64,000 nt of DNA from positions 3,591,101 to 3,655,100 of the forward strand of contig NZ_CP036455.1 of assembly GCF_004323735.1 (NCBI RefSeq), in the 5' to 3' direction. Every line of letters begins with the position of its first letter. The first letter of the stretch is position 1. The notes below the pieces were generated by a model. That model was given only the letters and a program-made list of their open reading frames with translations. It was not told the DNA's origin and ran no database searches. The DNA comes from Streptomonospora litoralis (GTDB taxonomy: Bacteria > Actinomycetota > Actinomycetes > Streptosporangiales > Streptosporangiaceae). A program made the position numbers and the translations under genes. Positions 48,695-64,000 of this stretch are shown here, in pieces.

Positions 48695-49453
48695 TCACAT
48701 GATGGAGACGCCGCTGTCGACACTGATGACCTGGCCGGTCATGCAGTCCTGGGACAGCAGGAGCCCCATGGTCTCGGCGACCTCCTCGGGTTCGACGAAG
48801 CGCGGCACGGGCGCCTTGTCGCGGATGTCGGAGACGACTCGCTCCGACAGGCCCTCGGTCATCGTGGTGGGCATGAACCCGGGCGACAGGGCGTTGACGG
48901 TCACCCCCCGCCGCCCGCACTCCGCCGCCAGCGTCCGGGTCAGACCGATCAGCCCCGCCTTGGACGACGCGTAGGCGGTCTGGCCCGCGGTGGCGACGAG
49001 GGCGGAGGGCGAGACGATGTTGACCACCCGTCCCCACCGGTTCCGCAGCATGGCGGGCACGGCGGCGCGCGCCGTGTGGAAGGGGCCCACCAGGTTGGTC
49101 TGGATGACCTGCGCCCAGTCCTGCGGCGACTGCATCGCCATCGCGGCGTCCTTGCGGACCGCGCCGTTGTTGACGAGGACGTCCACCGGGCCGAGTTCGC
49201 CGGTGATGCGCTCCATGAACGCGGTGACCGCCTCGTAGGACCCCACGTCGCCGGTGACCAGGACCGAGTCGTTGCGCAGCTCGCCCTGCAGCTTGCGCGC
49301 GGCCTCCTCTGACGAGTTGTAGTGCACGGCGACACGGCACCCGAGCCGGTCCAGCTCCGCGGCCAGCGCCTTCCCGAGTCCTCCCGATGCGCCGGTGACC
49401 AGGGCCACCGGGCTCTCGGGACGCACTCCTGCGGGCTTGTCCTTACTGCTCAT
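48695..49453 (-). CDS. 3-oxoacyl-ACP reductase-like SDR (FabG type)
   Basis: A 252-residue short-chain dehydrogenase with TGASGGLGKA, NNGAVRKDA, a catalytic Ser in NIVSPSALVATAG and YASSK. The overall sequence is close to FabG-type ketoreductases, including the C-terminal TGQVISVDSG. It follows the KAS III and ACP genes on the same strand, so it likely reduces the ACP-bound beta-keto chain. GGAG lies five bases before ATG 49453. It differs from housekeeping FabG in context: no FabH/ACP/FabF operon of primary metabolism is visible. Confidence 0.9.
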   Translation of the reverse strand: MSSKDKPAGVRPESPVALVTGASGGLGKALAAELDRLGCRVAVHYNSSEEAARKLQGELRNDSVLVTGDVGSYEAVTAFMERITGELGPVDVLVNNGAVRKDAAMAMQSPQDWAQVIQTNLVGPFHTARAAVPAMLRNRWGRVVNIVSPSALVATAGQTAYASSKAGLIGLTRTLAAECGRRGVTVNALSPGFMPTTMTEGLSERVVSDIRDKAPVPRFVEPEEVAETMGLLLSQDCMTGQVISVDSGVSIM

Positions 49454-49580
49454 ACTCACTCCACGATCGGTTGGACGCGGATGGCGGAACGGGCGCCGGC
49501 GCCGGACGGCCGCCGCGGCGGTGCCCCGGCCCTATGCCGGGGCACCGCGGTTCGGCGGCGGGCCCGCTCGGGGCGCTCGG

Positions 49581-50576
49581 TCACCGGCCGCCCCACTCCA
49601 GGAGCACGGACCCCCACGTCATGCCGGCGCCGAATCCGGCGAGGAGCACCAGCTGCCCCTCGCGGATGCGTCCGGCGTCCAGGGCCTCCGCGAGGGCGAG
49701 GGGGACCGACGCCGATGCGGTGTTGCCGTAGCGGTCCAGATTGGACACCAACCGCTCCGGCGGCAGCCCGGTGTGCTGCAGGACCGAGTTGATGATCCGG
49801 ATGTTGGCCTGGTGCGGGATGACGTGGTCGACGTCGGCCGGTTCGACCTTGGCCGATTCCAGGGTCTGGCGCACGGTCTCGACGGTGTAGCGCACCGCGT
49901 TCAGATAGATCTCGTTGCCGTTGATCCGCGCGTAGTGCAGCCCTTCGCGCACGGTCTCCGCCGTCGTGGGCAGCCGGCTGCCGCCGGCGAGGACCTTCAG
50001 ACTGGAGCTGCACGAGCCGTCGGCGCCGAGGTTCCATCCCCGGACCACGTGGTCGGGCCGGGGGGTCAGCACCAGTGCGCCGGCCCCGTCGCCCACCAGG
50101 ATGCCCAGGTCCCGGTCGTCGGGCCGGACCGTGAGCGTATGGGTGTCGGACCCGATCAGCAGGACGGGGCGCGGGTCCAGGGCCATCAGGGCCATGGCCG
50201 ACACCACACCGTAGACGAAACCGGCGCACTCGGCGTTGAGGTCGTGGGCGCTACCGGCGATACCGAGCTCGTGGTGGACGAAGGCCGACGTCGCCGGGGA
50301 CGGCTGCTCGGGGGTGGCGGTGGCGACCATCAGGTGGGCGATGTCGGCACCGTCCAGGCCCGCCTTGGCCAGCGCGTCGCGGCCGGCCTCGACGGCCAGC
50401 GACGCGGTGGTCTGCCCGGGCTCGACGGCGCGCCGTTCGCGGATGCCGCAGCGGCTGACGATCCAGTCCTCGTCGACGCCGAAACGCTGCGCCAGCTCGG
50501 CGTTGGAGACGACCCGCTCCGGCAGGGCCGTGCCCCAGCCGGCGATGCCGAATCCGCTCACCGCATCGGCCGTCAT
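49581..50576 (-). CDS. 3-oxoacyl-ACP synthase III (KAS III/FabH-like)
   Basis: A 331-residue ketosynthase III with a complete Cys-His-Asn triad: C117 (LNAECAGFVYG), H255 (VIPHQAN) and N285 (YGNTASAS). It primes or condenses an acyl-CoA with malonyl-ACP. Its ATG overlaps the stop of the ACP gene, so the two are translationally coupled and it probably works with that ACP. In secondary metabolism such pairs (RedP-RedQ in prodiginine synthesis, for example) start short dedicated fatty chains. Confidence 0.94.
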   Translation of the reverse strand: MTADAVSGFGIAGWGTALPERVVSNAELAQRFGVDEDWIVSRCGIRERRAVEPGQTTASLAVEAGRDALAKAGLDGADIAHLMVATATPEQPSPATSAFVHHELGIAGSAHDLNAECAGFVYGVVSAMALMALDPRPVLLIGSDTHTLTVRPDDRDLGILVGDGAGALVLTPRPDHVVRGWNLGADGSCSSSLKVLAGGSRLPTTAETVREGLHYARINGNEIYLNAVRYTVETVRQTLESAKVEPADVDHVIPHQANIRIINSVLQHTGLPPERLVSNLDRYGNTASASVPLALAEALDAGRIREGQLVLLAGFGAGMTWGSVLLEWGGR

Positions 50577-50827
50577 CCCTGCTCCGGGACGAGCCGCTGG
50601 ATGCGCTCGTGGACGGTGCGCAGGGTCGTCGTGTCGTCCATGTCGGCGAACAGGGACTCGTCGGCCGGAATGTGCGGGTAGTCGTTCTGGAACCCGTACA
50701 GCCACTCCATCAGGTCGAGCGAGTCGACGTCCTCGATGTGCTGCAGCGGGTGGTCCGGGTCGACGGCCTTGGCTCCCGAAACTGCGGTGAGCTGACTCGC
50801 GAGTTCGTCGATCGTGGGCATGGACAT
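50573..50827 (-). CDS. Acyl carrier protein
   Basis: An 84-residue acidic protein with the attachment Ser36 in EDVDSLDLMEWLYG. The motif is DSLD instead of the usual DSL(D/S)xVEL, and the helix after it is aromatic, so it is a diverged, dedicated ACP. First gene of ACP-KAS III-FabG. The PPTase encoded at 56.5 kb may activate it. The start is ATG 50827 or 50821. Confidence 0.9.
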   Translation of the reverse strand: MSMPTIDELASQLTAVSGAKAVDPDHPLQHIEDVDSLDLMEWLYGFQNDYPHIPADESLFADMDDTTTLRTVHERIQRLVPEQG

Positions 50828-51013
50828 CAGCGGTCGTCTCCTTACGCGGCTGCGTCGTTTCGCCAGTCATGGAACAGCCCGGCGCGCAATCCGCGCGCAA
50901 CAAGCCCGCATACGCCGCCGCCGGCCGATCGGGACTCGCCCGCGGCAGCGCGCCGGGCCTTCGCACCGCGGCCCCGGCCGCCGGAACGCGCGTCCTTGCG
51001 TTGCGCGGACGCG

Positions 51014-51102: not shown

Positions 51103-51999
51103 ATGACGACGGCTTCGGCGGAGGAAACCGCCAGTCGGGTCAACCCCGACGTCGACGCGATCAGACACCACTACGAGGTGGGCAACGACTTCTACCGGCT
51201 CCTGCTGGGCCCGACGATGATGTACTCGGGCGGCTACTGGGAGCCCGGCGAGGGCTTGCGCGAGGCCCTGGACCGCGCCCAGGAGCGCAAGCTCGACGCC
51301 TTCGCCGACCTCGCCGGGGCATCCGGCGCCAAGCGGGTGCTGGACATCGGCTGCGGGTGGGGCACCCTGCTCGACCGGCTGACGACGGTCCACGGCGTGG
51401 GCCGCGGGGTGGGGCTGACGCTCAGCCGGACCCAGCAGGAGTTCGTGCACGGGCTCGGCAACGAGCGGATCGAGGCCCGCGTCGAGAGCTGGGAGGAGCA
51501 CGAGGCCGAGGAGCCCTACGACGCCGCGTTCTCCCTCAACTCGCTGGAGCACTTCGTCCACTCCAGCCTGCCGCCGCGGGAGCGGACGAAGCGGTACCGC
51601 GCCTTCTTCGGCCGCGTCCACAAGGCGCTGCGCCCCGGCGCCGGGTTCGTACTGCACACCATGACGGCCGAGGCGCTGCCGATGAACCGCGCCCTGCTGG
51701 ACGACCTGAAATTCCTGCAGCGCTCGGAATTCGAAGGCTGCCACATTCCGCACCTGCACGAGATATCGCTGGGCATGGAAGGGCTTTTCGACGTCGTCGA
51801 GATCCGCAACGAGCGCGAGTCGTTCGCCAAGGCCTGCCGCGCGTGGCTGGAGCTGCTCGCGCAGCGCAGGGACGAGGCCGTGGCCCTGGAGGGCGAGGAC
51901 GTGGTGGCGCGGTTCGAGCGCTATCTGGACATCTTCGCCTACACGCTGGAAGACCGTTTTTTCAACAATTTCCGTATCACCGTCGAGCGCCGTTCCTAA
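51103..51999 (+). CDS. SAM methyltransferase, cyclopropane-fatty-acid-synthase-like
   Basis: A 298-residue methyltransferase with the CFA/mycolic-methylase N-terminal pattern HYEVGNDFYRLLLGPTMMYSGGYW, SAM motif VLDIGCGWGTLL, and the SLEHF and LHTM segments. Length matches mycolate methylases more than full CFA synthases (about 400). The Cys of YSCAY, present in cyclopropane synthases, is Gly here, so O-, N- or C-methylation of a lipid-like or ACP-bound chain is more likely than cyclopropanation. First gene of a six-gene operon. ATG 51103 follows ACGAGG; the frame is open upstream but not protein-like. Confidence 0.88.
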   Translation: MTTASAEETASRVNPDVDAIRHHYEVGNDFYRLLLGPTMMYSGGYWEPGEGLREALDRAQERKLDAFADLAGASGAKRVLDIGCGWGTLLDRLTTVHGVGRGVGLTLSRTQQEFVHGLGNERIEARVESWEEHEAEEPYDAAFSLNSLEHFVHSSLPPRERTKRYRAFFGRVHKALRPGAGFVLHTMTAEALPMNRALLDDLKFLQRSEFEGCHIPHLHEISLGMEGLFDVVEIRNERESFAKACRAWLELLAQRRDEAVALEGEDVVARFERYLDIFAYTLEDRFFNNFRITVERRS

Positions 52000-52010
52000 A
52001 AGGGGCTGTG

Positions 52011-53594
52011 ATGACAACCGCGTCGCACGACATCCGACTCGACGAGCCCGAGATCCGCGAATCGCACCGGGAGTCCGCGACGGGCGGGCCGGGCCGGCAC
52101 CTGCGGGTGGCGGTCGTCGGAAGCGGCTTCTCCGGGCTCGGTACGGCCATCCGGCTGCTCCAGGAGGGCATCACGGACTTCCTGGTCTTCGAGCGCGACC
52201 ACGAGGTGGGCGGCACCTGGCGGGACAACACCTATCCGGGCTGCCAGTGCGACGTCATGTCGCACCTGTACTCGTTCTCCTTCGCGCGCAATCCGGGCTG
52301 GAAGAGCACCTACGGCCGCCAGGAGGAGCTGTTCGCCTACCTGCGCGACTGCGCCGACCGGTTCGGCGCGCGCCCGCACATCCGCTTCGGCCACGAAGTG
52401 CTCGACGCCCGCTGGGACGAGGACGTCCGGCGGTGGCGGATCGAGACCTCGCAGGGCGAGTACACGGCTGGGGTCCTGGTCACCGGAGCCGGATACCTGA
52501 GCGAGCCCGCCGTTCCCGACGTACCCGGACTGGCCGGCTTCGAGGGGCCGGTGTTCCACTCGTCGCGCTGGGACCACGACTTCGACCTGGACGGCAAGCG
52601 CGTCGCCGTGATCGGCACCGGCGCCTCGGCGATCCAGTTCGTGCCCAAGATCCAGCCGCAGGTGGGCCGCCTGGACCTCTACCAGCGCACCCCGCCCTGG
52701 ATCGGGCCGAAGAACGACAAGCCCACCGGGGCGGTGCAGTCCTGGATGCTGCACAACGTCCCCGGCTACCAGCGGTTCCGCCGCAACTTCAACATGTGGG
52801 GGCGCGAGTTCCTCGCGTTCGTGATGTCCCGGCCCAAGATGGCCGCCCGCATGCAGAGCATGGCCAGCAACCACCTGGACAAGAGCGTGCCCGACCCCGA
52901 GCTGCGCGCCCGGCTGCGGCCCGACTACGTCATGGCCTGCAAGCGGCTGCTGTTCTCCAACACCTACTATCCCGCCGTCCAGCAGGACAACGTCGAGCTG
53001 ATCACCGACGGCATCGACCACGTGCGCCCGGGCTCTATCGTGACGGCCGACGGGCGCGAGCGCGAGATCGACGCCATCATCCTGGGCACCGGCTTCCGGG
53101 CCACCGACCAGCCGATCACCGAGCGCGTCCACGGCCGCGGCGGCGAGCAGCTGCGCGAGGTGTGGCGGCGGGAGGGGATCTCCGCGCACCGCGGCACGAC
53201 GGTCCCCGGTTTTCCGAACCTGTTCATGATGCTGGGCCCCAACACCACCCTGGGCCATTCCTCGCAGGTGGTGATGATCGAGGCGCAGATCAAGTACCTG
53301 CTGAGCGCGCTGAAGCACATGGCCCGAACCGGCGTGGACAGCGTCGAAGTCCGCCCCGAAGCCCACCGGGCGTGGAACGAGCGGCTCGCCGCCTCGCTGG
53401 ACGGCACGGTGTGGAACGCCGGCAACTGCCGGAGCTGGTACCTCGACGAGCACGGCCGCAACCCCTCCATCTGGCCCACCTACACCTGGCGCTTCCGCCG
53501 AGCCACGAAGCGCTTCGACCCGGGCGAGTACTCGCTCGCCCGCACCGCCGGCTCCGGCCTCCCCCACGTACGACCGAGCCTGATCCAGGAGTGA
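52011..53594 (+). CDS. Type I Baeyer-Villiger-type flavin monooxygenase
   Basis: A 527-residue flavoprotein with two Rossmann motifs (VVGSGFSGLG at about 35; VIGTGASAIQF at about 201). Between them is the BVMO fingerprint FEGPVFHSSRWD (177-188), which fits FxGxxxHxxxW(P/D). Also present are GGTWRDNTYPGCQCDV and the C-terminal WPTYTW. Type I BVMOs insert oxygen next to ketones; some members N-hydroxylate instead. It starts 12 bp after the methyltransferase gene and ends 9 bp before the oxidase gene. In this cluster an alpha-amino ketone or beta-keto chain would be a reasonable substrate. Confidence 0.93.
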   Translation: MTTASHDIRLDEPEIRESHRESATGGPGRHLRVAVVGSGFSGLGTAIRLLQEGITDFLVFERDHEVGGTWRDNTYPGCQCDVMSHLYSFSFARNPGWKSTYGRQEELFAYLRDCADRFGARPHIRFGHEVLDARWDEDVRRWRIETSQGEYTAGVLVTGAGYLSEPAVPDVPGLAGFEGPVFHSSRWDHDFDLDGKRVAVIGTGASAIQFVPKIQPQVGRLDLYQRTPPWIGPKNDKPTGAVQSWMLHNVPGYQRFRRNFNMWGREFLAFVMSRPKMAARMQSMASNHLDKSVPDPELRARLRPDYVMACKRLLFSNTYYPAVQQDNVELITDGIDHVRPGSIVTADGREREIDAIILGTGFRATDQPITERVHGRGGEQLREVWRREGISAHRGTTVPGFPNLFMMLGPNTTLGHSSQVVMIEAQIKYLLSALKHMARTGVDSVEVRPEAHRAWNERLAASLDGTVWNAGNCRSWYLDEHGRNPSIWPTYTWRFRRATKRFDPGEYSLARTAGSGLPHVRPSLIQE

Positions 53595-53602
53595 ACGATC
53601 CG

Positions 53603-55081
53603 ATGACTGTCGAACTCTCACGCCGCAACGTATTGACCGGGATGGCCCTCACCGCGGTCGGCTGGAGTGTCTCCAGCCAGTCGTGGGCCGTCGCCGACAC
53701 CCGCGGATCCGATGTGGTTCCGCTGCCCGAGCTCGACGGCCGCGTGGAGACCTCGGCCTCCGCCACCTCGGGCTTCGGGCACGACTTCGGGCGCATGATC
53801 ACCGGCGATCCCTGGGGCGTGCTGCGCCCCGGCTCTGTGCGCGACATCCAGAAGATCGTGCGCTACGCCCGCAAGAACGAGCTGAAGGTGGCCGTCAACG
53901 GCCGGTCCGGCACCGGCGACGACCTCGAATCGCACTCCAGCTACGGCCAGGCCCTGGTCCCCGGCGGCATCGCGATCGACGCGCGCGGCCTCTCGAAGAT
54001 TCTGGACGTCGACTCCGAGCGCGCCGTGGTCGAGGCCGGCGTCACCTGGGCGCAGCTGACCGACGCGGCACTCGAAAAGGGACTCACCCCGCCCGCCCTC
54101 ACCGACTACCTGCACCTGTCGGTGGGCGGCACCCTCAGCGTCGGCGGCATCGGCGGAACCGTCCGCGAGCACGGCCTGCAGGTCGACACGGTGGAGTCCG
54201 TCGACGTCGTCACCGGCGAGGGCCGGCTGGAGCACGCCTCACCGTGGCGCAACGCCGACCTGTTCTACGCCGTCCTCGCCGGCGGCGGCCAGTGCGGCAT
54301 CATCGTCCGCGCAACGGTGAAGATGCAGCGGGCACCGGAGCGGGCGCTGATGTGCAGCCTGTTCTACACCGACCGCGACACCTGGATGGCCGACAGCGAG
54401 CGGATCATGCGCACCCGCCGCTTCGACGCCCAGGCCGGGGAAATGCTGCTCAACCCCGAAGGCACCGGCTGGATGTACAAGATCGAGGGCGTCGCCTTCC
54501 ACAAGGAGGGAAAGGCCCCCGACACCGACCGGCTGCTGCGCGGACTGCGCGACGACCGCGGCTCCGCCGACATCCAGAAGATGTCCTACCGCGACTACGC
54601 GTTCCGCCTCGACCCCTACGAGGCCTACCTCAAGGACGCCGGGTACTGGAAGGCCGCCAAGCCCTGGCTGAGCCTGTTCCTTCCGGCCTCGAAGACCGAC
54701 CGGTTCCTGCGCGAGGCGGAGCGGGAGCTGGACGCCGCCGACATCGGCGCCGGCTTCCTGCTCGTCTATCCGTACAAGACCCGCAAGATCACCCGGCCGC
54801 TGGCGGTGCAGCCCGACGAGCGGGAGGGCTACCTGTTCGACCTGCTGCGGTTCCCCGCGCCGGACGGCTCCGACATCGAGGGCATGCTCCGCCAGAACCG
54901 CCGGCTGCACGACACGGCCGTGCGGATGGGCGCCAAACGCTACCTCGTGGGCGCGATCCCGGACATGAGCCGCCGGGACTGGCGCGAGCACTTCGGCCAC
55001 CACTACTGGTGGTTCCGGTTCGCCAAGCGCCGGCACGACCCCGACAACGTCCTCACTCCCGGCCAGGGGTTCTTCGGCTGA
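53603..55081 (+). CDS. Tat-exported FAD-linked oxidase, cytokinin-dehydrogenase-like
   Basis: A 492-residue VAO/PCMH-fold oxidase. The N-terminus SRRNVLTGMALTAVGW is a twin-arginine signal (R7, R8). The FAD domain includes GTLSVGGIGGTVREHG and AVLAGGGQCGIIVRATV. The C-terminal half and last residues (NVLTPGQGFF) resemble cytokinin dehydrogenases. The His-Ser-containing loop ESHSSYGQA may carry the covalent flavin, but a short insertion makes this uncertain. Family members oxidise C-N or C-O bonds. Within the operon it probably oxidises the pathway product outside the membrane; a true cytokinin substrate seems unlikely. Confidence 0.88.
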   Translation: MTVELSRRNVLTGMALTAVGWSVSSQSWAVADTRGSDVVPLPELDGRVETSASATSGFGHDFGRMITGDPWGVLRPGSVRDIQKIVRYARKNELKVAVNGRSGTGDDLESHSSYGQALVPGGIAIDARGLSKILDVDSERAVVEAGVTWAQLTDAALEKGLTPPALTDYLHLSVGGTLSVGGIGGTVREHGLQVDTVESVDVVTGEGRLEHASPWRNADLFYAVLAGGGQCGIIVRATVKMQRAPERALMCSLFYTDRDTWMADSERIMRTRRFDAQAGEMLLNPEGTGWMYKIEGVAFHKEGKAPDTDRLLRGLRDDRGSADIQKMSYRDYAFRLDPYEAYLKDAGYWKAAKPWLSLFLPASKTDRFLREAERELDAADIGAGFLLVYPYKTRKITRPLAVQPDEREGYLFDLLRFPAPDGSDIEGMLRQNRRLHDTAVRMGAKRYLVGAIPDMSRRDWREHFGHHYWWFRFAKRRHDPDNVLTPGQGFFG

Positions 55082-55127: not shown

Positions 55128-55628
55128 ATGAAGAACTACGACCGCATCGACGAGGCGGTGATCGAGGCGCCTCCCGCAGCCGTGTGGGAGGCGCTGATCT
55201 CCGAGTTCCGCGGCGCCGCCCGGTGGTGGGTGCCGCACAACACCTATGCCCTGCTTTCCGGCTCGCCCGACGAGGTGGGCGGCGAGGTCGAGGTCACCGT
55301 GCACACGCGCGGCGCCGACCGCGGCGGGCTCAAGTTGAGGTTCGTCTCGCGGACCCGCTCGGTGGAGCCCGACCGCATGCTGGCGGTGGAGTACGTCTCC
55401 GGGGTGTTCCGCGGACCGAGCGAGTTCTGGCTGACTCCCCTCGACGACGGTGCTCGCACGCGCCTGGCGATGCACTTCCGGGGGCGGCCGCACGGCTGGC
55501 TGCGGCTGCTCTCCGGCGTCGCACCGCTCGACCGCGAGCACTCGGCCGGCACGCAGGCGGCCTTCGCCGAACTCGCGCGGCGGCTGGCCGGCGCGCACGG
55601 CTCGGAGACCGGAAAGGAGAGCGTCTGA
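55128..55628 (+). CDS. SRPBCC-fold protein (polyketide cyclase/Bet v1-like)
   Basis: A 166-residue START/SRPBCC protein: IDEAVIEAPPAAVWEALI at the N-terminus, a curved-sheet pattern in the middle (VEVTVHTRG, LKLRFVSRTR, LAVEYVSG, FWLTPLDDGARTRLAMHF) and a long C-terminal helix. Such proteins bind hydrophobic ligands, and some act as aromatase/cyclases. Its TGA shares one base with the ATG of the hydrolase gene. A binding or cyclising role for the chain is plausible but not shown. Confidence 0.85.
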   Translation: MKNYDRIDEAVIEAPPAAVWEALISEFRGAARWWVPHNTYALLSGSPDEVGGEVEVTVHTRGADRGGLKLRFVSRTRSVEPDRMLAVEYVSGVFRGPSEFWLTPLDDGARTRLAMHFRGRPHGWLRLLSGVAPLDREHSAGTQAAFAELARRLAGAHGSETGKESV

Positions 55629-56542
55629 TGTCGGATACGACCACCGAACCGGCCGCCGCCGCGACCGCGGCAGGAGAGGGCACGGTCGTCGCCGACGACG
55701 GCGCGCGGTTGGCCGTCACCGTCCTGGAGCCGGTCCCGGCCCACAGCCCCTTCTCCTCCGCCGCCGCGGGCCTGCCCACGGCGGTGCTGGCCCACGGCTG
55801 GGGCGCCGGCCGCCGCGTCTGGGGCACGGTCGCCGACCGCCTCATCCGCGGCGGCCACCGCGTCGTGCTATACGACCAGCGGGGGCACGGCGGCTCCGGA
55901 ACGGGTACGGAGCCGATCGCCGTCGACCGGCTCGGCAGGGACCTGGCCGCGGTCCTGGAGGCCGTCGGCGCCGAGCGGGCGGTCGTCGTCGGACACTCCG
56001 GCGGCGGCTTCGCCGCGCTGGCCCACACCTCGGGCGGCTCGGAGTCCGCGAAGCGGCGCGTGGGCGGACTCGTCCTGGTGAGCACGGCCGCCCACGACCA
56101 GGACACGCCCGAGGGCGAGGTCCGCATGATGGGCAGCCCGCTATTCTCCCGGGCGCTGGCCCGTCCGGCGCTGGGGCGGAGGCTGCTCGCCCAGACCATG
56201 GGCAAGGGCGCGGACCCGCGCCTGCTGGAGGTCCACCGCCAGATGTTCGCCGCGACACCCGCGCAGGTGCGTGCCTCCTGCTTCCGGTGCTCGCGCGGCA
56301 TGGACCTGCGCGAGCCGCTCGCGTCGGTCGCGGTTCCGGCTGTGGTGCTGGCCGGGGCCCAGGACCGCACGATCGCGCCGCGGCTCGGCGCGGCGGTCGC
56401 CGAGGCGCTGCCCGAGGCGCGGTTCGCGGAGTCGGCCGGCATCGGCCACATGCTGCCGCTGGAGGCGCCCTCGGCCGTGGTGGAGGCTGTCTCGGAGGTG
56501 GCCGCGGCGGTGGACGGCGGACGCCTACGGGCCTACCGGTGA
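55628..56542 (+). CDS. Alpha/beta-fold hydrolase
   Basis: A 304-residue hydrolase with the oxyanion segment LAHGWGAGRRVW, nucleophile elbow VVGHSGGGFAAL, acid in GAQDRTIAP and final GIGHMLPLE His, so the Ser-Asp-His triad is complete. It resembles general esterase, lactonase or perhydrolase-type enzymes. It overlaps both neighbours and may release or cyclise the product, or hydrolyse an ester formed by the BVMO. Confidence 0.9.
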   Translation: MSDTTTEPAAAATAAGEGTVVADDGARLAVTVLEPVPAHSPFSSAAAGLPTAVLAHGWGAGRRVWGTVADRLIRGGHRVVLYDQRGHGGSGTGTEPIAVDRLGRDLAAVLEAVGAERAVVVGHSGGGFAALAHTSGGSESAKRRVGGLVLVSTAAHDQDTPEGEVRMMGSPLFSRALARPALGRRLLAQTMGKGADPRLLEVHRQMFAATPAQVRASCFRCSRGMDLREPLASVAVPAVVLAGAQDRTIAPRLGAAVAEALPEARFAESAGIGHMLPLEAPSAVVEAVSEVAAAVDGGRLRAYR

Positions 56543-57225
56543 TCGAGGACCTGCTCACGGCGGACTGCGCGGTCGCCGAGGCGTTCGACGACTCCGCCGC
56601 TGTAGCGCTGTTTCCGCAGGAGGCGGCGCTGATGGAGGGGCGGGTGGCGCGGCGGCGCCGGCAGTTCGCGACCGGGCGGTCGTGCGCCCGCCGCGCACTC
56701 GGCCGCCTGGGCGTGCCGCCCGCCCCTCTGCTTCCGGGGCCGGGCGGCGCGCCCGTGTGGCCGCAGGGCGTGGTCGGCAGCATCACGCACTGCGACGGCT
56801 ACCTGGCCGCCGCCGTGGCCCCCGCCCGCGCGGTGGCGGCGGTGGGCATCGACGCGGAGCCCGCCCTGCCCCTGCCGGAGGGGGTCCTCTCCCTGGTGGC
56901 CGGGCCCGAGGAGCAGGAGGCGCTGTCGGCCTTCGGTACCGAGGGAGCCGCGGCCTGCCGCGACCGGCTGCTGTTCAGCGCGAAGGAGGCGGTCTACAAG
57001 GCGTGGTACCCGCGGGCCCGGCGGTGGTCGGCGCTGCGGGAGATCCGCGTCGTGCTCGACCCCGGCGGCACGTTCACGGCCCGGCCGCCGGCCCGCGGTC
57101 CGGCGGGCGCTGCGCAGCACGACTACAGCGGCCGCTGGCTGGTGCGGTCGGGGCTGCTGCTGGCCGCGGTGCTGGAGCCGGCGCCGGCCGGGCACCCGTC
57201 CCGGCTGTTTCGGCTCAGCTCTTGA
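56539..57225 (+). CDS. 4'-phosphopantetheinyl transferase (Sfp/EntD type)
   Basis: A 228-residue PPTase with GSITHCDGYLAA, VGIDAEPALP and FSAKEAVYKAWYP, the three motifs that bind CoA, Mg2+ and the carrier protein. GTG 56539 overlaps the hydrolase TGA. It converts apo-ACP to holo-ACP, most likely the diverged ACP at 50.6 kb and possibly the PKS carriers. Last gene of the six-gene operon. Its 3' end overlaps the convergent AraC gene by 11 bp. Confidence 0.94.
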   Translation: MIEDLLTADCAVAEAFDDSAAVALFPQEAALMEGRVARRRRQFATGRSCARRALGRLGVPPAPLLPGPGGAPVWPQGVVGSITHCDGYLAAAVAPARAVAAVGIDAEPALPLPEGVLSLVAGPEEQEALSAFGTEGAAACRDRLLFSAKEAVYKAWYPRARRWSALREIRVVLDPGGTFTARPPARGPAGAAQHDYSGRWLVRSGLLLAAVLEPAPAGHPSRLFRLSS

Positions 57226-58207
57226 GCAGCACCGCCCGCGGCGCCTCGCCACGCGGCCGCGGGGGCGCGGCCTGGCCGCGGGTGCGGTACTCCTGCGGGC
57301 TCATGCCGTGCTCGCGCTTGAACGCCGCGCTCAACGCGAACGCGCTGCTGTAGCCGACGCGCCGGGACACGGCGTCGACGGTGGCGTCGGGCTCGTGCAG
57401 CAGGTCGGCCGCCAGGGTCAGGCGCCAGCTTGTGAGGTAGGCCATGGGCGGCTGCCCCACGAGGGAGGTGAACCGGCGCGCGAAGCCGGCCCGGGAGGCA
57501 CCGACCTTGGCGGCCAGCGCCGCCACCGTCCAGGCGTGCGCGGGGTTCTCGTGGACCAGCCGCAGTGCCGGGCCGACGACGGGGTCGCCTTGGGCCCGAT
57601 ACCAGGCGGGGGCGCTGTCGCCGTCCGTTGCCAGCCAGTTGCGCAGCACGCTGACCAGCAGCAGGTCCAGCAGCCGGTCCAGCACGAGCTGCTGGCCGAG
57701 TTTCTCGCGGTGGATCTCGGCGGCGAGCAGCGACACCAGGGTGGCGTCGCCGGCGTCGGCCTCCTGCACGAGCAGTTCGGGCATCGTGGTCAGCAGCCGC
57801 CGCCCGATCTCGCTGGGCGCCTGGTAGGTGCCGCTCAACATCACCGAGGCGCCGTCGTGGAGGCCGTCGCCCCACGTGCGGATGCCGAGGGACATGTACT
57901 CGGTGACGTCCTCCCCCGCCGACGTGGTGCAGCGCTGCTCGGGGCCGACGGTGACCTGCGCCGGGGTGGCGAGGGAGTCGGCCAGCGTGTAGGGCCGCGG
58001 ACCGCGGACGGCGGCCACGTCTCCCGGGTGCAGCGGGGTCGGGGTGCCGTGCTCGGGGATGATCCAGGCGTCGCCGCGCACCATGGTCACGACCGAGACG
58101 GGAGCCCGGTCCTCCACGCGCAGCGACCACGGCGGTGTGAACATCGAGCGGAGCAGGAACGCCCCGCGTGCCTTCGGACTCTCCAACAGAGCGGTGAGCG
58201 CGTCCAT
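57215..58207 (-). CDS. AraC-family regulator with cupin sensor
   Basis: A 330-residue regulator with an N-terminal AraC-type cupin (about 10-175) and a C-terminal double HTH (about 220-310; TVAALAAKVGASRAGFARRFTSLVG and VSRRVGYSSAFALSAAFKREHG). It resembles actinobacterial AraC proteins that sit next to oxidoreductase genes. It diverges from the DUF1772-NmrA genes, with a 38-bp palindrome in the shared promoter region, and probably controls them instead of the flanking biosynthetic operon. Confidence 0.93.
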   Translation of the reverse strand: MDALTALLESPKARGAFLLRSMFTPPWSLRVEDRAPVSVVTMVRGDAWIIPEHGTPTPLHPGDVAAVRGPRPYTLADSLATPAQVTVGPEQRCTTSAGEDVTEYMSLGIRTWGDGLHDGASVMLSGTYQAPSEIGRRLLTTMPELLVQEADAGDATLVSLLAAEIHREKLGQQLVLDRLLDLLLVSVLRNWLATDGDSAPAWYRAQGDPVVGPALRLVHENPAHAWTVAALAAKVGASRAGFARRFTSLVGQPPMAYLTSWRLTLAADLLHEPDATVDAVSRRVGYSSAFALSAAFKREHGMSPQEYRTRGQAAPPRPRGEAPRAVLLKS

Positions 58208-58455: not shown

Positions 58456-58953
58456 ATGGAACTTGCGCAGTTGTCGCTGGCGGCGGCGACGGTGGCGACC
58501 GGAATGGTCGCGGGGCTCTTCTTCGTCTTCTCGTGCGCGGTGATGCCCGCTCTGCGCCGCACCTCGGATCAGGTGTTCGTCGAGGTCATGCAGCGCATCA
58601 ACGCCGCGATCCTGAACGGCTGGTTCCTGCTCGTGTTCCTGGGCGCCCCGCTCGCCACGGCTCTCACCGCGGTGCTGGCGCTGTCGGGCCGAAACGAGCG
58701 GCTGCTGTCCCCGGTGACGGCGGCCCTCGCGCTCTACCTGGCGATGATCGTCGTCACGCGGGCGTTCAACATCCGGATGAACAACGAACTGGCCCGCGCG
58801 GGCGACTCCGGCCGCGGCGCGGCGGCCGCACGGCGCCGGTTCGAGGGGCCGTGGAACCGGTGGAACCACGTCCGCACCCTGCTGTCGACGGCGTCCGCGT
58901 GCTGCCTGGTCTGGGCGCTGGCCACGGGTGCGGGGGCGGCCGCTGCGGGGTGA
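58456..58953 (+). CDS. DUF1772 (anthrone-oxygenase-like) membrane protein, copy 1
   Basis: A 165-residue four-helix membrane protein with the DUF1772 features GLFFVFSCAVMPALRR, FVEVMQRINAAILNGWF, FNIRMNNELA and FEGPWNRWNHVRTLLS. The family includes anthrone-oxygenase-like proteins, but most members have no known role. It is followed by an NmrA-type reductase gene and a second DUF1772 gene, a common actinobacterial trio beside an AraC regulator. Confidence 0.88.
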   Translation: MELAQLSLAAATVATGMVAGLFFVFSCAVMPALRRTSDQVFVEVMQRINAAILNGWFLLVFLGAPLATALTAVLALSGRNERLLSPVTAALALYLAMIVVTRAFNIRMNNELARAGDSGRGAAAARRRFEGPWNRWNHVRTLLSTASACCLVWALATGAGAAAAG

Positions 58954-59034: not shown

Positions 59035-59865
59035 ATGACGACACAGGAGAACACCCAGTCCAAGCCCACGCTGGTGACCGGCGGCACCGGCAAGACCGGC
59101 CGCAGGGTCGCCGAGCGCCTCACGCAGCGCGGCCTGCCCGTACGCATCGGCTCCCGCTCCGCCCAGCCGCCCTTCTCCTGGGAGGACCCCGGCACCTGGG
59201 AGGCCGCTCTGGAAGGCGTCGGCGGCGTCTACATCTGCTTCCAGCCCGACCTGGCGTTCCCGGGTGCCGCCGAGACCGTGGGCCGCTTCGCCCGCCTGGC
59301 GGTCTCCAAGGGCGCGCGGCGCCTGGTGGTGCTCTCGGGGCGCGGCGAAGAAGGCGCCGAGGCCGCGGAGAAGCAGGTGCAGGAGGCCGGCGCCGAGTGG
59401 ACCGTGGTCCGCTGCAGCTGGTTCAACCAGAACTTCAATGAGAGCTTCTTCCTGGACCCGGTCCTGGCCGGCGAACTGGCGCTGCCCACGGGCGACGCCG
59501 TCGAGCCGTTCGTGGACGCCGAGGACATCGCCGACGTGTCCGCCGCCGCGCTGAGCGAGCCGGGCCACGCCGGCCAGGTCTACGAGCTGTCCGGCCCGCG
59601 CCTGCTGAGCTTCGGCGACGTCGCCCGGGAGCTCTCCACCGCCACCGGCCGCGACATCCGGTACGTGCCCGTCACCGGCGACGAGTTCCGCGCCATCCTG
59701 CGGGAGAACGGCCTGCCGGAAGAGTTCGCCGACCTGTTCGAGCTGGTCTCCGACGGCCGCAACGCCCACCTCGTCGACGGCGTCGAGCGGGCGCTGGGCC
59801 GCAAGCCGCGGGACTTCCGCGAGTTCGCCGCCGAAGCCGCGGCCACCGGGGTGTGGAACCCCTGA
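59035..59865 (+). CDS. NmrA-like NAD(P)-binding protein
   Basis: A 276-residue atypical SDR with TGGTGKTGRRVAERL at the N-terminus, LVVLSGRGEEG, and FVDAEDIADVSAAAL. It lacks the YxxxK catalytic pair, as NmrA and quinone-reductase-type relatives do. It may sense redox state or reduce a quinone. It lies 81 bp after the first DUF1772 gene. Confidence 0.9.
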   Translation: MTTQENTQSKPTLVTGGTGKTGRRVAERLTQRGLPVRIGSRSAQPPFSWEDPGTWEAALEGVGGVYICFQPDLAFPGAAETVGRFARLAVSKGARRLVVLSGRGEEGAEAAEKQVQEAGAEWTVVRCSWFNQNFNESFFLDPVLAGELALPTGDAVEPFVDAEDIADVSAAALSEPGHAGQVYELSGPRLLSFGDVARELSTATGRDIRYVPVTGDEFRAILRENGLPEEFADLFELVSDGRNAHLVDGVERALGRKPRDFREFAAEAAATGVWNP

Positions 59866-59920: not shown

Positions 59921-59947
59921 CGGGCCCAAGACGACAGGGGGAGGCGG

Positions 59948-60523
59948 ATGAGGACCGAAACAGGCGCCGGCCGGCCTGAGGCGCTCGGAATCGGGACGCA
60001 GGCGAGCCCGGGGGGCGCGACCGCCGGAGCCGTCCTCGCGGGGGCCGCGGTAGGGACGGGGCTCATGGCGGGCCTGTTCTTCGCGTTCGACGTGGGGGTC
60101 ATGCCGGGGCTGGCCAAGACGGGCGACCTGGTGTTCGTGACCGTCATGCAGCGCATCAACGCGGAGATCGAGAACGGCCTGTTCGGGCTGGTGTTCCTCG
60201 GCGCCTTCCTCGCGACCGGGGTGGCGGCCGCGCTGCAGCACCGGCTCGGCCGCCACCGCGCCGCTTTGCGGGTGTGGGGAGCCCTCGCGTGCTACGCCGG
60301 GATGCTGGCGATCACCGCGGGGGTCAACATCCCGCTGAACCAGGCCCTGGCACGTGCGGGCGACCCTGCCGAGATCCCCGACCTGCATGCGGTGCGGACC
60401 GCGTTCGAGGGGCCGTGGCGCCTGGCGAACGCGGCGCGGACCGCCGCCTGCACGGCCGCTCTGGGACTGCTCGCCCGCGCCTTGATCCTGCACCGGCGAT
60501 CGGCCCGGCCCGCGCGTCGGTGA
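59948..60523 (+). CDS. DUF1772 membrane protein, copy 2
   Basis: A 191-residue four-helix protein, paralogous to the one at 58456: GLFFAFDVGVMPGLAK, FVTVMQRINAEIENGLF, VNIPLNQALARAG and FEGPWRLANAART align with the first copy, and an extra 30-residue N-terminus is present. Two diverged copies around one NmrA gene suggest an old duplication. Function is unknown. Confidence 0.87.
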   Translation: MRTETGAGRPEALGIGTQASPGGATAGAVLAGAAVGTGLMAGLFFAFDVGVMPGLAKTGDLVFVTVMQRINAEIENGLFGLVFLGAFLATGVAAALQHRLGRHRAALRVWGALACYAGMLAITAGVNIPLNQALARAGDPAEIPDLHAVRTAFEGPWRLANAARTAACTAALGLLARALILHRRSARPARR

Positions 60524-60730: not shown

Positions 60731-61576
60731 TCAGACGTTTTGCGGACGAGGGACGTGCGAGGCGGAGTGGCCGGGACCGCGGCCGGGGTCCCAGTCGTGC
60801 CCCGAGTCCTCCGGCGAGCGGAGCAGGTCGATGTACATCCGCTGGACCTCCGGCGCCGGGTCGACGCCGAGCTGCTCGGCGAGGAGCTCGCGGAGTTCGT
60901 GGTAGGCGCCGAGCGCCTCGGCGCGGTTGCCGGCCGAGGCCAGCGCGGCGATCCGGCAGCGGTGCGCGCTCTCCCGGAACGGCGCGTGGCGGATCGCCGT
61001 GTTGGCGTAGCGCAGGGCGCGGTACCGGTCGCTCAGGGCGGACGAGGCGAGGCTCGCGATCTCCAGAGCGGCCAATCTCAGCGCGTCGACCCGCTCGCGC
61101 ACGCCGATCACCCAGTCGCCGTCGTGGGCCGCGAGGAACGCCCCCTCCAGGCAGGAGGCCGCCCGCTCGGCGAGCCGGCACGCCGCGCGGTGGTCGCTGC
61201 GGGCGAACGCCTCGGCCGCCTCGGTCACCGCCGACTCCGCGTGCTCCAGGTCGACGCGGACCTCGGCGGGCAGCCGCAGGAAATAGCGGCCGCCCTGGGA
61301 GACGAGCGAACCCACGGCCCCGGAGGGTGCGGTATCGGCGAGGAAGCCGCGCACCCGGCTGACGATGCTGCGCAGGGCCGAGGGCCAGGTGTTGGGCAGC
61401 CCTTCCGGCCATATCGTGTCGGCGAGCTGTTCACGATTGGTTCCCTGGGCGCGCTCCATAACCAATCGCGCAAACGCGACCTGCGCCTGCGGACTCGTCA
61501 GGCTCCGGGCCCTTCGGTTGGAACATTCGATTGTGACGAGTCCGGTGAGGTTGATCCGCAAGTCGTCCGTACTCAT
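60731..61576 (-). CDS. SARP-family transcriptional activator
   Basis: A 281-residue regulator with the SARP architecture: an N-terminal OmpR-type winged helix (about 1-95; LTSPQAQVAFARLVMER, NTWPSALRSIVSRVRGFL) and a bacterial transcriptional activation domain (about 100-260; AALASAGNRAEALGAYHELRELLAEQLGVDPAPEVQRMY). There is no NB-ARC extension, so it is a small SARP of the ActII-ORF4/RedD kind. SARPs bind direct heptamer repeats spaced 11 bp, close to the -10 box. Such repeats occur upstream of the methyltransferase operon and the oxoamine synthase, its likely targets. ATG 61576 was chosen at the conserved domain edge. Confidence 0.93.
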   Translation of the reverse strand: MSTDDLRINLTGLVTIECSNRRARSLTSPQAQVAFARLVMERAQGTNREQLADTIWPEGLPNTWPSALRSIVSRVRGFLADTAPSGAVGSLVSQGGRYFLRLPAEVRVDLEHAESAVTEAAEAFARSDHRAACRLAERAASCLEGAFLAAHDGDWVIGVRERVDALRLAALEIASLASSALSDRYRALRYANTAIRHAPFRESAHRCRIAALASAGNRAEALGAYHELRELLAEQLGVDPAPEVQRMYIDLLRSPEDSGHDWDPGRGPGHSASHVPRPQNV

Positions 61577-62149
61577 GGCTACCCCCAATGTAGAGCCTGC
61601 CTTCACGCTCGCTCGACAAGTGAAAAGCGTGATGTTTGTCGGGCCGCGTGTCAAGCGAGGAGGCACCCCTAAAACGAGACTGTGAAATGCTCGACCGAAT
61701 CGCGCCCGCACTCGGCCGCGCGATTCCTGTGTTGATCATGAATATCTTCCATCGATTACTCTTCGGAATTCTTCATTGACGCTCGGTTCCGACCGGAAGA
61801 ATGCCCCCGGCCCGGCTTCCTGCGGAGACGGCCGGATGCGGCGGGCTCCCCGCCGGCGGCCCCGCGTCCGGCGGGGGGCAGAGCGCCCGCGGCGCTCCCG
61901 TCGACCAGCGCGGGCCGACCCGCCTTGCGCAGCCCACCCGGCGGGCACCCCGACTCCTCGCTTCCATATTCCATACGGAATTTCGTCACCTCATTCTCAT
62001 GTTGCGCCCGTGTTGCGGGAACAGGGTAAGAAGCCGCTGTCGCCCTGCTGTTGCGCCCGACTTGCGTGCGGTTCAGTAGAAATATTCCGCGTCGGAGCAC
62101 CGCCGCCCGCACCGGCGGCGGCATCGGCCCGCTAATGAAGGAGACGCGT
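61577..62149. promoter_or_regulatory. SARP / oxoamine synthase intergenic region with SARP heptamers
   Basis: No gene is visible in these 573 bp. TGTTGCG occurs at 62000-62006 and 62011-62017 (11-bp step), and TGTTGCG at 62049-62055 with ACTTGCG at 62060-62066 (again 11 bp). TAGAAA (62077-62082), ten bases beyond the last repeat, is a plausible -10 box. Also present are ATTCC-ATAC-GGAAT (61968-61981) and CCCCTAA (61666-61672) near the SARP start. Confidence 0.65.
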
Positions 62150-63367
62150 GTGACACCGCCATCGGCCTGGGGCGTGCTAGCAGAAAGATTGGCCGCCACG
62201 CAGCGGCGCGTTCGGTCACTGGAATCCGAGCCGGACCGGCGCAACAGTTTCCTGCCCTACACAGTCGAACGCGATTCGGCCTATGCCGAATTCGAGGGCT
62301 CGCGGCTGCTGATGATGTCCGGTTACAGCTACCTGGGCCTGGCGGGCGACGAACGGGTGGTCGCGGCCGCGAAGTCGGCGGTGGACACCTACGGCACCGG
62401 CAACCACGGCGTCCGCGCGCTGGCCGGCACCATCCCGCTGCACGAGGAGCTGGAAGCGGAGATCGCCCGCTTCGCCGGGCGCGAGGCCGCGATCGCGTTC
62501 GGCTCCGGCTACGCCGCCAACGTCGGCACGGTGGGCGGCCTGGTCGGGGCCGGCGACACCGTGTTCATCGACAAGTACGACCACGCCAGCATCGTCGACG
62601 GCTGCCGGCTGAGCGGGGCCGAGGTGACCCGGTTCCGCCACAACGACGTCGAGCACCTGGGGCGGCGGCTGGCCGCCTCCCGCACCCGCGGCCTGCGGCT
62701 GGTCATCGTGGACAGCGTCTACTCCATGGACGGCGACATCGCGCCCCTTCCGCAGCTGCGGCGGGTCTGCGACGAGCACGACGCGCTGCTGATGGTCGAC
62801 GAGGCCCACGCCCTGGGGGTCATCGGCGCATCGGGCGGCGGCATCGAGGACCACTTCGGCGGCGAGGTCCGGGTCGACGTGAAGCTGGGGACGCTGTCCA
62901 AGGCGATCCCGTCGATGGGCGGCTGGGTGGCGGGCGACCAGGCGCTGATCGGCCACCTGCGGTACGCGGCGCGGCCCTTCCTGTTCTCCGCCGCGCTGGC
63001 TCCGGCACAGGCTGCTGCCGCGCTGGAGTCCCTGCGCATCCTGCGCGCCGAGCCGGAACGGGTCGCCCACACCCAGCACGAGTCCGCGCGGCTGCGCGAT
63101 CTGCTCTCCGCGGCGGGTCTGCGCACCGCGGCGAGTGAGACGGCGGTGATCCCGCTGATCGCGGGCGGCGACGAGACCGCCTACGACTTCGCGACCGCCT
63201 GCCGCCACGAGGGCGTCATCGCCCTGCCGGTGGTCACCCCGGCCGTGCCCAACGACCTGGCCCGGCTGCGGATCGCGGTCACCGCGCGGCACAGCAAGGC
63301 CGACATCGACTTCGCCGCGGAAGCCTTCCTCAAGGCCGCGCGCACCTCGGCCGTACTGCCGTCCTGA
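62150..63367 (+). CDS. Alpha-oxoamine synthase (KAPA synthase/serine palmitoyltransferase-like)
   Basis: A 405-residue PLP enzyme with SGYSYLGLAGD, GTGNHGVRALAGT, the PLP-ring Asp in MVDEAHALGV (217-220) and the Schiff-base Lys251 in KLGTLSKAIPSMGG. The family condenses an amino acid with an acyl thioester, with loss of CO2, to give an alpha-amino ketone. Biotin BioF is possible, but the neighbours (SARP, ketosynthase, ACP) favour a secondary-metabolite role, as for the oxoamine synthases of prodiginine-type pathways. GTG 62150 has AAGGAG six bases upstream, so an in-frame ATG at 62135 is less likely. Confidence 0.92.
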   Translation: MTPPSAWGVLAERLAATQRRVRSLESEPDRRNSFLPYTVERDSAYAEFEGSRLLMMSGYSYLGLAGDERVVAAAKSAVDTYGTGNHGVRALAGTIPLHEELEAEIARFAGREAAIAFGSGYAANVGTVGGLVGAGDTVFIDKYDHASIVDGCRLSGAEVTRFRHNDVEHLGRRLAASRTRGLRLVIVDSVYSMDGDIAPLPQLRRVCDEHDALLMVDEAHALGVIGASGGGIEDHFGGEVRVDVKLGTLSKAIPSMGGWVAGDQALIGHLRYAARPFLFSAALAPAQAAAALESLRILRAEPERVAHTQHESARLRDLLSAAGLRTAASETAVIPLIAGGDETAYDFATACRHEGVIALPVVTPAVPNDLARLRIAVTARHSKADIDFAAEAFLKAARTSAVLPS

Positions 63368-63396
63368 AGACACCGTTGGAGCGGACGCGAGTTCCG

Positions 63397-64000
63397 ATGC
63401 GCAATTCATCCAGACCACCCGTCGCCATCACCGGCTGGGGCGTCGTGACGCCGGCCGGCTGCAGCCCCGACGACCTGTGGGCCGGCCTGCGGGCCGGAAA
63501 GTCCACCGCCGCCGTCCTCACCTCACCGGAACTGGCCCGCCACCGGATGCACATCGGCTGTGCGGTGCGCGGGCTGGACGGGGCCCGCGAGGTCTCGGCC
63601 AAGGACGCCCGCAGACTCGACCCGTTCACGGTGTACGGCACCACGGCGGCGTTGGCGGCCCACCGCGACGCCGGCTCCCCTGCGCCCGAGCCCGGCCGCG
63701 GCGCGATCGTCGTCGGCAACGCCGTCGGCGGCCGCTCCACCAGCGACAGCCAGAGCCGCAACTACGTGGAGCAGGGCCCGGGGCGGGTCAACCCGCTCAT
63801 GCCGCTGATGACCATGCCCAACGCCGCCGCGGCGCGGATCGCCATGGACCTGGGATGGCAGGGCCCCGCCACGACCATCGCCACCACCTGCTCCAGCGGC
63901 GCGGACGCGGTGGGCCACGCCCTGCTGCTCCTGCAGACGGGCCGGGCCGACGCGGTGCTCGCCGGCGGCTGCGAATGCACGCTGACGCCCGTCACCCTCG
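63397..64000 (+). CDS. FabF/KAS II-type ketosynthase (3' end outside window)
   Basis: The first 201 residues of a KAS I/II-type ketosynthase, cut off by the window edge. It starts VAITGWGVVTPAGCSPDDLW. The active-site Cys165 lies in IATTCSSGADAVGHAL, so this half at least is catalytic and not a chain-length factor. The His residues lie beyond the edge. It is 29 bp after the oxoamine synthase gene and on the same strand. With KAS III, ACP and FabG it would extend an ACP-bound chain. A type II PKS alpha subunit cannot be excluded from this part. Confidence 0.92.
   Translation, partial: MRNSSRPPVAITGWGVVTPAGCSPDDLWAGLRAGKSTAAVLTSPELARHRMHIGCAVRGLDGAREVSAKDARRLDPFTVYGTTAALAAHRDAGSPAPEPGRGAIVVGNAVGGRSTSDSQSRNYVEQGPGRVNPLMPLMTMPNAAAARIAMDLGWQGPATTIATTCSSGADAVGHALLLLQTGRADAVLAGGCECTLTPVTL

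Follow-up and report, generated by a model that had tools for sequence, protein, structure and literature searches.

A putative pyrrolopyrrole-forming cassette of the kosinostatin type within a dissociated acyl-ACP gene cluster of Streptomonospora litoralis

The putative ring-forming cassette and its relatives

A 64,000-nt stretch of the Streptomonospora litoralis genome (contig 1, positions 3591101-3655100; here called the window) ends within a biosynthetic gene cluster that spans from approximately 48.7 kb to approximately 73.1 kb in window numbering, which we extended past 64000 for genes to the right. The original prediction, made from the window, had proposed extending the locus in that direction. 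This showed that the window splits the cluster, the second half of which was found in the genome, and the genes of that half decide the cluster's identity: they include a cassette of eight genes related to that of kosinostatin biosynthesis. The earlier statement that no pyrrole-forming gene is visible has to be revised, as the ring-forming cassette starts approximately 1.5 kb past the window edge.

The cluster continues for approximately 9 kb to the right of the window, and its genes from MaoC to a hydrolase occupy positions C1:3655798-3664185 of the genome. Gene calls in this part were made with a GC3-based script. Assignments are based on Pfam/NCBIfam, apart from the TrpF-like gene, which was assigned by NCBIfam, profile and residues; the cassette genes share one strand.

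64698-65513: MaoC
65506-67032, shared strand: stand-alone amino-acid adenylation enzyme
67029-67292, shared strand: acyl carrier protein (ACP) of the cassette
67295-68353, shared strand: TrpD-like protein
68394-69179, shared strand: TrpA-like protein
69190-69564, shared strand: EctC-like (ectoine-synthase-like) cupin
69573-70718, shared strand: acyl-CoA-dehydrogenase-type flavoenzyme (ACAD) of the prolyl-carrier type
70715-71449, shared strand: TrpF-like protein
71449-72207, shared strand: TrpC-like protein
72366-73085: hydrolase, last gene of the cluster

The hydrolase gene is followed by a LytTR/histidine-kinase pair and then a symporter, which we take as the right border of the cluster.

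Searches with the TrpD-like protein, in which only a handful of top preliminary candidates per genome were scored, gave matches in 6 of 297 genomes of an order sample (E<=1e-30; source genome included) and in 1 of 396 genomes of a phylum sample (E<=1e-60; source genome only). In the order-sample search no match was obtained in five genomes of the same genus. From a scan of named species the best 80 loci were kept, and 35 of them (L028-L062), with identities of 48-63%, were treated as close relatives; there follows a gap down to 39% identity or less, and the loci in that range (L063-L107) were left out. All eight cassette genes are present in 32 of the 35 relatives, and 30 have them on one strand in the order adenylation-ACP-TrpD-TrpA-EctC-ACAD-TrpF-TrpC; TrpF and TrpC are relocated in two (L043 and L056). 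The cassette is partial in L048 and L060, and L052 is without TrpA in the fetched stretch.

The hosts of these relatives are 34 actinomycetes and the proteobacterium Azospirillum griseum (L056), in which all eight genes are present and TrpF and TrpC have an upstream position; this suggests a transfer between phyla. In S. albogriseolus JCM 4616 (L048) and Streptomyces sp. SW4 (L060) only the ACP, TrpD- and EctC-like members lie within the 21 kb fetched, with a distant adenylation-like match in the former; the remaining genes may lie further off. Both lie near a SnoaL-like gene that shares 85-86% identity with its counterpart at a type II locus.

Two of the relatives are published kosinostatin-type clusters, namely those of S. 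spiroverticillatus JCM 4609 (L046) and N. alkaliphila YIM 80379 (L058, the same as G071). PMC13099267 describes the former as a kosinostatin cluster with a similarity of 90% or more to ksn of S. albidoflavus. According to the same paper, kosinostatin was no longer made after disruption of ksnC3, which is described as a putative phosphoribosylanthranilate isomerase gene and by annotation is the counterpart of the TrpF-like gene studied here. For N. alkaliphila, PMC7918784 lists an almost complete kosinostatin cluster; the role that this paper gives for kstC is to turn the pyrrole and phosphoribosyl pyrophosphate (PRPP) into the pyrrolopyrrole. The window cassette proteins are 46-65% identical to those of S. 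spiroverticillatus and 42-68% identical to those of N. alkaliphila, and the ACAD is 55-58% identical to those of the known kosinostatin clusters. As a close relative of the cassette is a published kosinostatin cluster, and the TrpF-like gene is required in a nearly identical cluster, we identify the window cassette as the predicted pyrrolopyrrole cassette of kosinostatin. Here it occurs without the aromatic polyketide synthase: the N. alkaliphila contig has a type II ketosynthase (KS)-alpha (74%) and CLF (61%), whereas the window region gave only 38% and 32% matches to these, both to a FabF-type KS.

Genes inside the window and the three cluster contexts

The part of the cluster that begins inside the window consists of the following genes.

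48695..49453, minus strand: FabG-type 3-oxoacyl-ACP reductase, left end of the cluster (Pfam adh_short_C2; an upstream start is possible)
49581..50576, minus strand: beta-ketoacyl-ACP synthase III, KAS III (Pfam ACP_syn_III/_C; NCBIfam PRK09352, 316 bits, above the cut-off of 249)
50573..50827, minus strand: ACP of 84 aa with a DSL motif (kept in 14/14 aligned rows; without Pfam match)
51103..51999, plus strand: CMAS/CFA-like SAM methyltransferase (Pfam CMAS, 157 bits)
52008..53594, plus strand: Baeyer-Villiger-type flavin monooxygenase, BVMO (Pfam; top solved relatives are cyclohexanone and phenylacetone monooxygenases)
53603..55081, plus strand: cytokinin-dehydrogenase-like (CKX-like) FAD oxidase (Pfam FAD_binding_4 and Cytokin-bind; matches solved cytokinin dehydrogenases, best 182 bits)
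55128..55628, plus strand: SRPBCC (polyketide cyclase-like) protein (Pfam Polyketide_cyc2)
55628..56542, plus strand: alpha/beta hydrolase (Pfam Abhydrolase_6)
56539..57225, plus strand: 4'-phosphopantetheinyl transferase (Pfam 4PPT_N and ACPS)
57215..58207, minus strand: AraC-family regulator with Cupin_6 (Pfam; found also in N. salina and several relatives)
58456..58953, plus strand: first anthrone-oxygenase-like protein (Pfam PF08592)
59035..59865, plus strand: NmrA-like NAD(P)-binding protein (Pfam)
60065..60523, plus strand: second anthrone-oxygenase-like protein (Pfam PF08592)
60731..61459, minus strand: SARP-type regulator (Pfam BTAD; another ATG start lies 117 bases upstream)
62135..63367, plus strand: alpha-oxoamine synthase, AOS (Pfam Aminotran_1_2; pyridoxal phosphate Lys and a His kept)
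63397..64632, plus strand, past the window edge at 64000: FabF-type KS with a Cys-His-His active site (Pfam)

Each gene that the original prediction had named between 48.7 and 64 kb was present, and all but the ACP were recognized by Pfam. Both AOS and KS stood on the plus strand, with corrected boundaries (AOS start at approximately 62135, KS start at approximately 63397 and end at 64632), and the AraC regulator, the two anthrone-oxygenase-like genes and the NmrA-like gene were added to the list. The FabG-type protein scores 222 bits with the NCBIfam 3oxo_ACP_reduc model (cut-off 298), and the KS 434 bits with PRK07314, above its cut-off of 387. With a start at 53603 the CKX-like oxidase carries a twin-arginine-type N-terminal stretch, SRRNVLT. 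The nearest solved structure to the AOS is serine palmitoyltransferase (SPT; 283 bits), and its cofactor-binding Lys and the His are conserved in 18/18 aligned rows. An assignment of the AOS as bioF was rejected, in line with the earlier view of this enzyme: it scores 378 and 387 bits against a cut-off of 426, and its neighbors are SARP, KS, MaoC and adenylation genes, with no bio genes. The other bioF-like gene of the genome is also below this cut-off (355 bits).

The grouping of these genes is not a matter of chance, since they also occur close together at related loci in other genera. Of the 35 loci, 16 have an AOS, and 8 of these 16 also have KAS III and CMAS in the 10-kb flank. In several Streptomyces, FabG, KAS III, ACP and CMAS directly adjoin SARP-AOS, and FabG is 67-78% identical in AOS-type and AOS-clade loci that also show KAS III. 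Moreover, KAS III, CMAS and the cassette half stand together in longer stretches of N. salina and G089; for N. salina (L029), KAS III appears when the stretch is extended (G113). From the eight flanks and these two genomes, the left half (the KAS III/CMAS side) belongs to the same cluster as the cassette half, and the predicted single cluster of dissociated acyl-ACP enzymes with an AOS is supported.

We built a tree from seven concatenated cassette proteins (37 rows, IQ-TREE quick mode, SH-aLRT support only, unrooted; L048 and L060 left out). L016, which has an in-frame stop, was left out of the alignments, and its genome (G084) was read by gene calling instead. The tree separates three contexts. 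Clade I comprises the AOS-KS-MaoC type of the window, whose sister is Nocardiopsis salina, and three rows with MaoC (two also with KS) that show no AOS. Clade II is the AOS-free type, with four rows and 100% support; SARP, KAS III, ACP, FabG and CKX-like oxidase genes are present in G039 and G084 and in part in L059, and the short L051 has AraC and NmrA only. Clade III contains 12 rows, with kosinostatin-type clusters and metagenome or other loci. The AOS label requires 2 changes on the tree, compared to a shuffled mean of 12.7. The position of the Arthrobacter row L053, which has a long branch, is uncertain, and L056 carries a 'T2PKS' label that is questionable (36% KS match, no CLF).

In the AOS-free cluster of G039, genes for a PRPP synthetase (L023:14458-15435) and an acyltransferase lie beside KAS III-FabG; the former fits PRPP as a substrate. 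It is full-length in this locus only, with a partial 39% match in L059. A protein of approximately 1000 aa is encoded beside AOS-free clusters (L023:3971-6973 and L051:8700-11708); it gave a weak BTAD match in G039 (28.7 bits) and no Pfam match at 1e-5 in L051, and is perhaps a large SARP-type regulator.

Transglutaminase-like genes occur in 10/12 and UbiD genes in 6/12 rows of clade III, and neither was found in the window cluster or in the AOS-type loci searched. Neither is known to be needed for the ring itself. Clade I has KS and AOS in their place, which gives the impression that it lengthens the carboxyl thioester instead of removing it. The UbiD family includes a pyrrole-2-carboxylate decarboxylase (PMC7976604). 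The argument that UbiD removes a pyrrole-2-carboxylate in kosinostatin-type clusters is weak, given that UbiD is limited to those 6 rows and was found neither in S. spiroverticillatus nor in the fetched stretches of N. alkaliphila.

A separate cluster for a glycosylated metabolite lies at positions 1-27000 of the window. It includes an open frame of approximately 3,900 aa, probably a type I polyketide synthase, with a 39% match to a Pfam-called acyltransferase gene, and genes for a glycosyltransferase, NDP-hexose 2,3-dehydratase, C-methyltransferase, NDP-sugar epimerase/dehydratase, nucleotidyltransferase, DegT aminotransferase, ABC exporter and a two-component pair. Three of the sugar genes have counterparts next to the N. 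alkaliphila kosinostatin cassette, with identities of 37-57%.

Conserved residues, proposed pathway and alternatives

The adenylation pocket, read off motifs with the GrsA scheme, has the residues DLLQLTVDS in the window, DLLQVTVDS in S. spiroverticillatus and DLLQITVDS in N. alkaliphila. At six of the nine positions D-L-Q-T-D-S is kept in 36 of 38 rows from all contexts, both published clusters included, and for this reason the adenylation substrate is probably the same across contexts. One exception has Ser for Thr; the other is the distant homologue in L048. The pocket Asp, which presumably binds the amino group of alpha-amino acids, is kept in 37/38 rows, and the best stand-alone solved relative of the enzyme is an L-proline ligase (6o6e). 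For the ACAD-type dehydrogenase the best structure matches are prolyl-ACP dehydrogenases; a Glu that we take to be their catalytic base is conserved in 37/37 rows. The protein remains below the prodiginine cut-offs, with 325 vs. 650 bits for RedW, its best NCBIfam model, and 317 vs. 500 bits for PigA.

The EctC-like cupin scores 140 bits with NCBIfam PRK13290, above the ectoine synthase subfamily cut-off of 128. Its three metal ligands are kept in 39/39 rows, as are the positions Ser-23, Arg-25, Thr-40, Tyr-52 and Phe-106 named in the relevant section of PMC6344544; a Trp is shifted by approximately 3 residues in the chain and Asn-38 is replaced. We considered this last replacement (Thr in 37/39 rows) as a sign of a carrier-bound substrate and dropped it, as the genome's own ectC has His there. 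This better-scoring, ordinary ectC lies at 0.57 Mb, and no ectA- or ectB-like gene was recognized by Pfam among the called cluster genes.

Catalytic residues are also kept in the tryptophan-pathway-like enzymes: the metal-binding DE of TrpD in 39/39 rows and its GTGGG in 38/39, the catalytic Lys and Glu positions of TrpC in 37/37, and the catalytic Glu/Asp of TrpA in 36/36. Only TrpA passes its NCBIfam cut-off (149 vs. 102 bits), and TrpD (147 vs. 199) and TrpC (113 vs. 284) fail. TrpF (PF00697) gave no Pfam match in the whole genome, the cluster protein included. Its assignment comes from an NCBIfam match (PRK01222, 47 bits vs. a cut-off of 216), a 17-member profile that matches phosphoribosylanthranilate isomerase structures at 1e-12, and a catalytic Cys and Asp present in 17/17 aligned members. 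A second, better-scoring trpC and trpA pair lies at 2.42 Mb of the same genome and an ordinary trpD at 2.25 Mb; the Trp-like and EctC-like genes of the cluster are not housekeeping copies. Compared to the genome's own proteins, the cluster TrpD keeps the PRPP/metal motifs and has KTGSR in place of KHGNR, and the cluster TrpC keeps the Lys/Glu residues, has SAS in place of ESG and lost SPSKG. The changed positions presumably face the anthranilate ring or its carboxylate. It seems that these enzymes retain their chemistry and act on another acceptor.

The genes present, their conservation, their active-site residues and the link to kosinostatin clusters were observed directly; all reactions in this organism, together with the substrate and the product, are inferred. 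We propose, with a probability of about 0.68, that the cluster builds a pyrrolopyrrole-type bicyclic acid on a carrier by means of the kosinostatin cassette, and that this acid then serves dissociated fatty-acid-like enzymes as an acyl starter. The adenylation enzyme would load an amino-acid-like substrate onto the ACP, the EctC-like cupin would close a cyclic amidine, and the prolyl-carrier-type dehydrogenase would oxidize the ring. TrpD would then add phosphoribose from PRPP to the amine, TrpF would carry out an Amadori rearrangement, TrpC would close the second pyrrole ring, and TrpA would split off glyceraldehyde 3-phosphate. KS, FabG, MaoC and KAS III/ACP may extend the acyl-ACP or supply it. 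The chain may be released by AOS, which would condense it with a (second) amino acid under decarboxylation; tailoring may follow through the methyltransferase, the BVMO and the CKX-like oxidase, the last of them exported. The alpha-amino ketone and the extracellular final step of the original prediction stay putative.

As to the source of the first ring, glutamine is a candidate. It would give a cyclic amidine (proline-like), then a 5-aminopyrrole-2-carboxyl-ACP (anthranilate-like), on which TrpD, F, C and A would build the second ring. This route is suggested by the L-proline-ligase-like adenylation enzyme, the prolyl-type dehydrogenase and a reported side reaction of EctC (glutamine to ADPC), and would give all eight cassette genes a job. 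In its full form it holds that the eight genes suffice, as a transferable unit, to convert L-glutamine and PRPP to 1,6-dihydropyrrolo[2,3-b]pyrrole-2-carboxyl-ACP, a reading that would correct the nicotinic-acid origin, explain some orphan EctC proteins and feed a prodiginine-like KS/AOS line to pyrrolopyrrole products of an unseen class. We put this forward tentatively, as one possibility, made slightly less probable by the lack of UbiD in what was fetched of the published clusters. Another candidate for loading, beta-alanine, which would give pyrrole-3-carboxylate, was rejected because published work indicates a pyrrolopyrrole and the adenylation pocket retains the Asp associated with alpha-amino acids.

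Several points weigh against the proposed pathway. KAS III was not seen in the fetched stretch of 8 of the 16 AOS-type relatives, some of them on short contigs. Identity between the window cassette and its counterparts in the two published clusters is just 42-68%, and the window's clade is without the transglutaminase-like and UbiD genes of clade III, so its product may differ. To our knowledge, no metabolite has been assigned to a cluster of clade I or clade II. Finally, a glutamine origin conflicts with the nicotinic acid and ribose origin given in the relevant parts of PMC5321127 and PMC7918784.

This published route is the alternative that survives best: nicotinic acid would be loaded and converted to a pyrrole, and the Trp-like enzymes would add the second ring from PRPP, giving the same bicyclic unit by a different first half. 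It is stated for kstB in Table 5 of PMC7918784 ('Load nicotinic acid and convert it to a pyrrole'), and nicotinic acid and ribose are also named as kosinostatin precursors in passages of PMC5321127 and PMC8400222, all tracing to Ma et al. 2013; the excerpted text of PMC8698034 does not address ring origin. We consider it rather unlikely, as the eight shared genes include no hydroxylase or ring-opening enzyme for a pyridine, there is no obvious need for an EctC-type cyclase and a prolyl-carrier-type dehydrogenase, and the pocket keeps the Asp whose role we assumed above. If nicotinic acid is loaded, the glutamine step is wrong and the pyrrolopyrrole assignment stands.

The likeness of the adenylation enzyme to a proline ligase and of the dehydrogenase to RedW and prolyl-ACP dehydrogenases, together with the KS and AOS, would also fit a prodiginine-like route, in which loaded proline would be oxidized to pyrrole-2-carboxyl-ACP, the KS would extend this unit and the AOS would condense it with an amino acid; the Trp-like genes would then have another purpose. 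This is improbable. RedW is matched at half its cut-off, the KS reaches just 87 bits against PigJ, and the Trp-like and EctC genes travel with the cassette in 32/35 relatives, the TrpF-like gene being required in the kosinostatin producer of PMC13099267, as its pertinent passage states. In keeping with the original prediction, no prodiginine ligase (RedH/PigC) was recognized by Pfam among the called cluster genes, the right extension included.

Even less probable is a spare supply of tryptophan or indole, in which the Trp-like enzymes would convert anthranilate to the indole of an indole-containing product. The block covers each of the four steps of that conversion and TrpA passes its cut-off, yet TrpD and TrpC lie far under theirs and have the altered motifs, Pfam finds no TrpB- or TrpE-like gene in the block, and the EctC, adenylation, ACP and dehydrogenase genes accompany the Trp-like genes in those 32 relatives.

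That two unrelated clusters are neighbors here, one at 48.7-57.2 kb (KAS III, CMAS, BVMO, CKX) and one at 62-73 kb (AOS and cassette), approximately 5 kb apart with regulators and small genes between, is hardly credible and already largely refuted by the shared flanks of AOS loci, by N. salina and G089, and by KAS III-ACP-FabG and CKX accompanying the cassette in the AOS-free G039 and G084.

Significance and comparison with known systems

The ring-forming cassette is known, and the biosynthetic setting in which this cluster places it is new. In the open-access literature we found no description of the whole gene set, in agreement with the unfamiliar combination noted in the original prediction; a match to a characterized cluster, considered there, holds for the eight-gene cassette, which is that of kosinostatin, and not for AOS, KS, MaoC, KAS III, CMAS, BVMO and CKX. 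Among the papers listed in our searches, quinocyclines were the only pyrrolopyrrole natural products that we saw named. With the cassette in three biosynthetic contexts and AOS in 16 of the 35 sampled loci, a class of unseen compounds should exist. The cassette family makes testable the origin of the pyrrolopyrrole (glutamine vs. nicotinic acid) and the role of some orphan ectoine synthases. A section of PMC7918784 lists 'ectoine' among the antiSMASH types of the kosinostatin region, so that such clusters may be filed under ectoine and overlooked.

Compared to the kosinostatin/quinocycline clusters (kst/ksn), the cluster has in common the eight-gene cassette, its order and the six fixed pocket residues. 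Type II KS/CLF, cyclase and transglutaminase-like genes were not found in it; instead it carries AOS-KS-MaoC, KAS III-ACP-FabG, CMAS, BVMO and CKX-like oxidase genes.

With the prodiginine pathway (RedM/O/W/X/N and RedP/Q), it shares a stand-alone adenylation enzyme, a carrier, a prolyl-type dehydrogenase, KS, oxoamine synthase, KAS III and ACP, and resembles the first half of that pathway in working. It differs in that no ligase was found, the AOS is BioF/SPT-like, the KS is FabF-like, the dehydrogenase is under the RedW cut-off, and the Trp-like and EctC genes are added.

The tryptophan pathway is matched in the folds, catalytic residues and expected chemistry of TrpD, TrpF, TrpC and TrpA. 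The differences are the changed residues, which we take to be substrate-facing, the ordinary trpD, trpC and trpA elsewhere in the genome, and a cluster block without TrpB.

The orphan EctC proteins of Czech et al. 2019, the function of which is called 'not yet clear' in a passage of PMC6344544, have in common with the cluster's cupin the ectoine synthase fold, the metal ligands outside an ect operon and the displaced Trp. In comparison with the orphans described in that part of the paper, the genomic context of the window cluster suggests a substrate.

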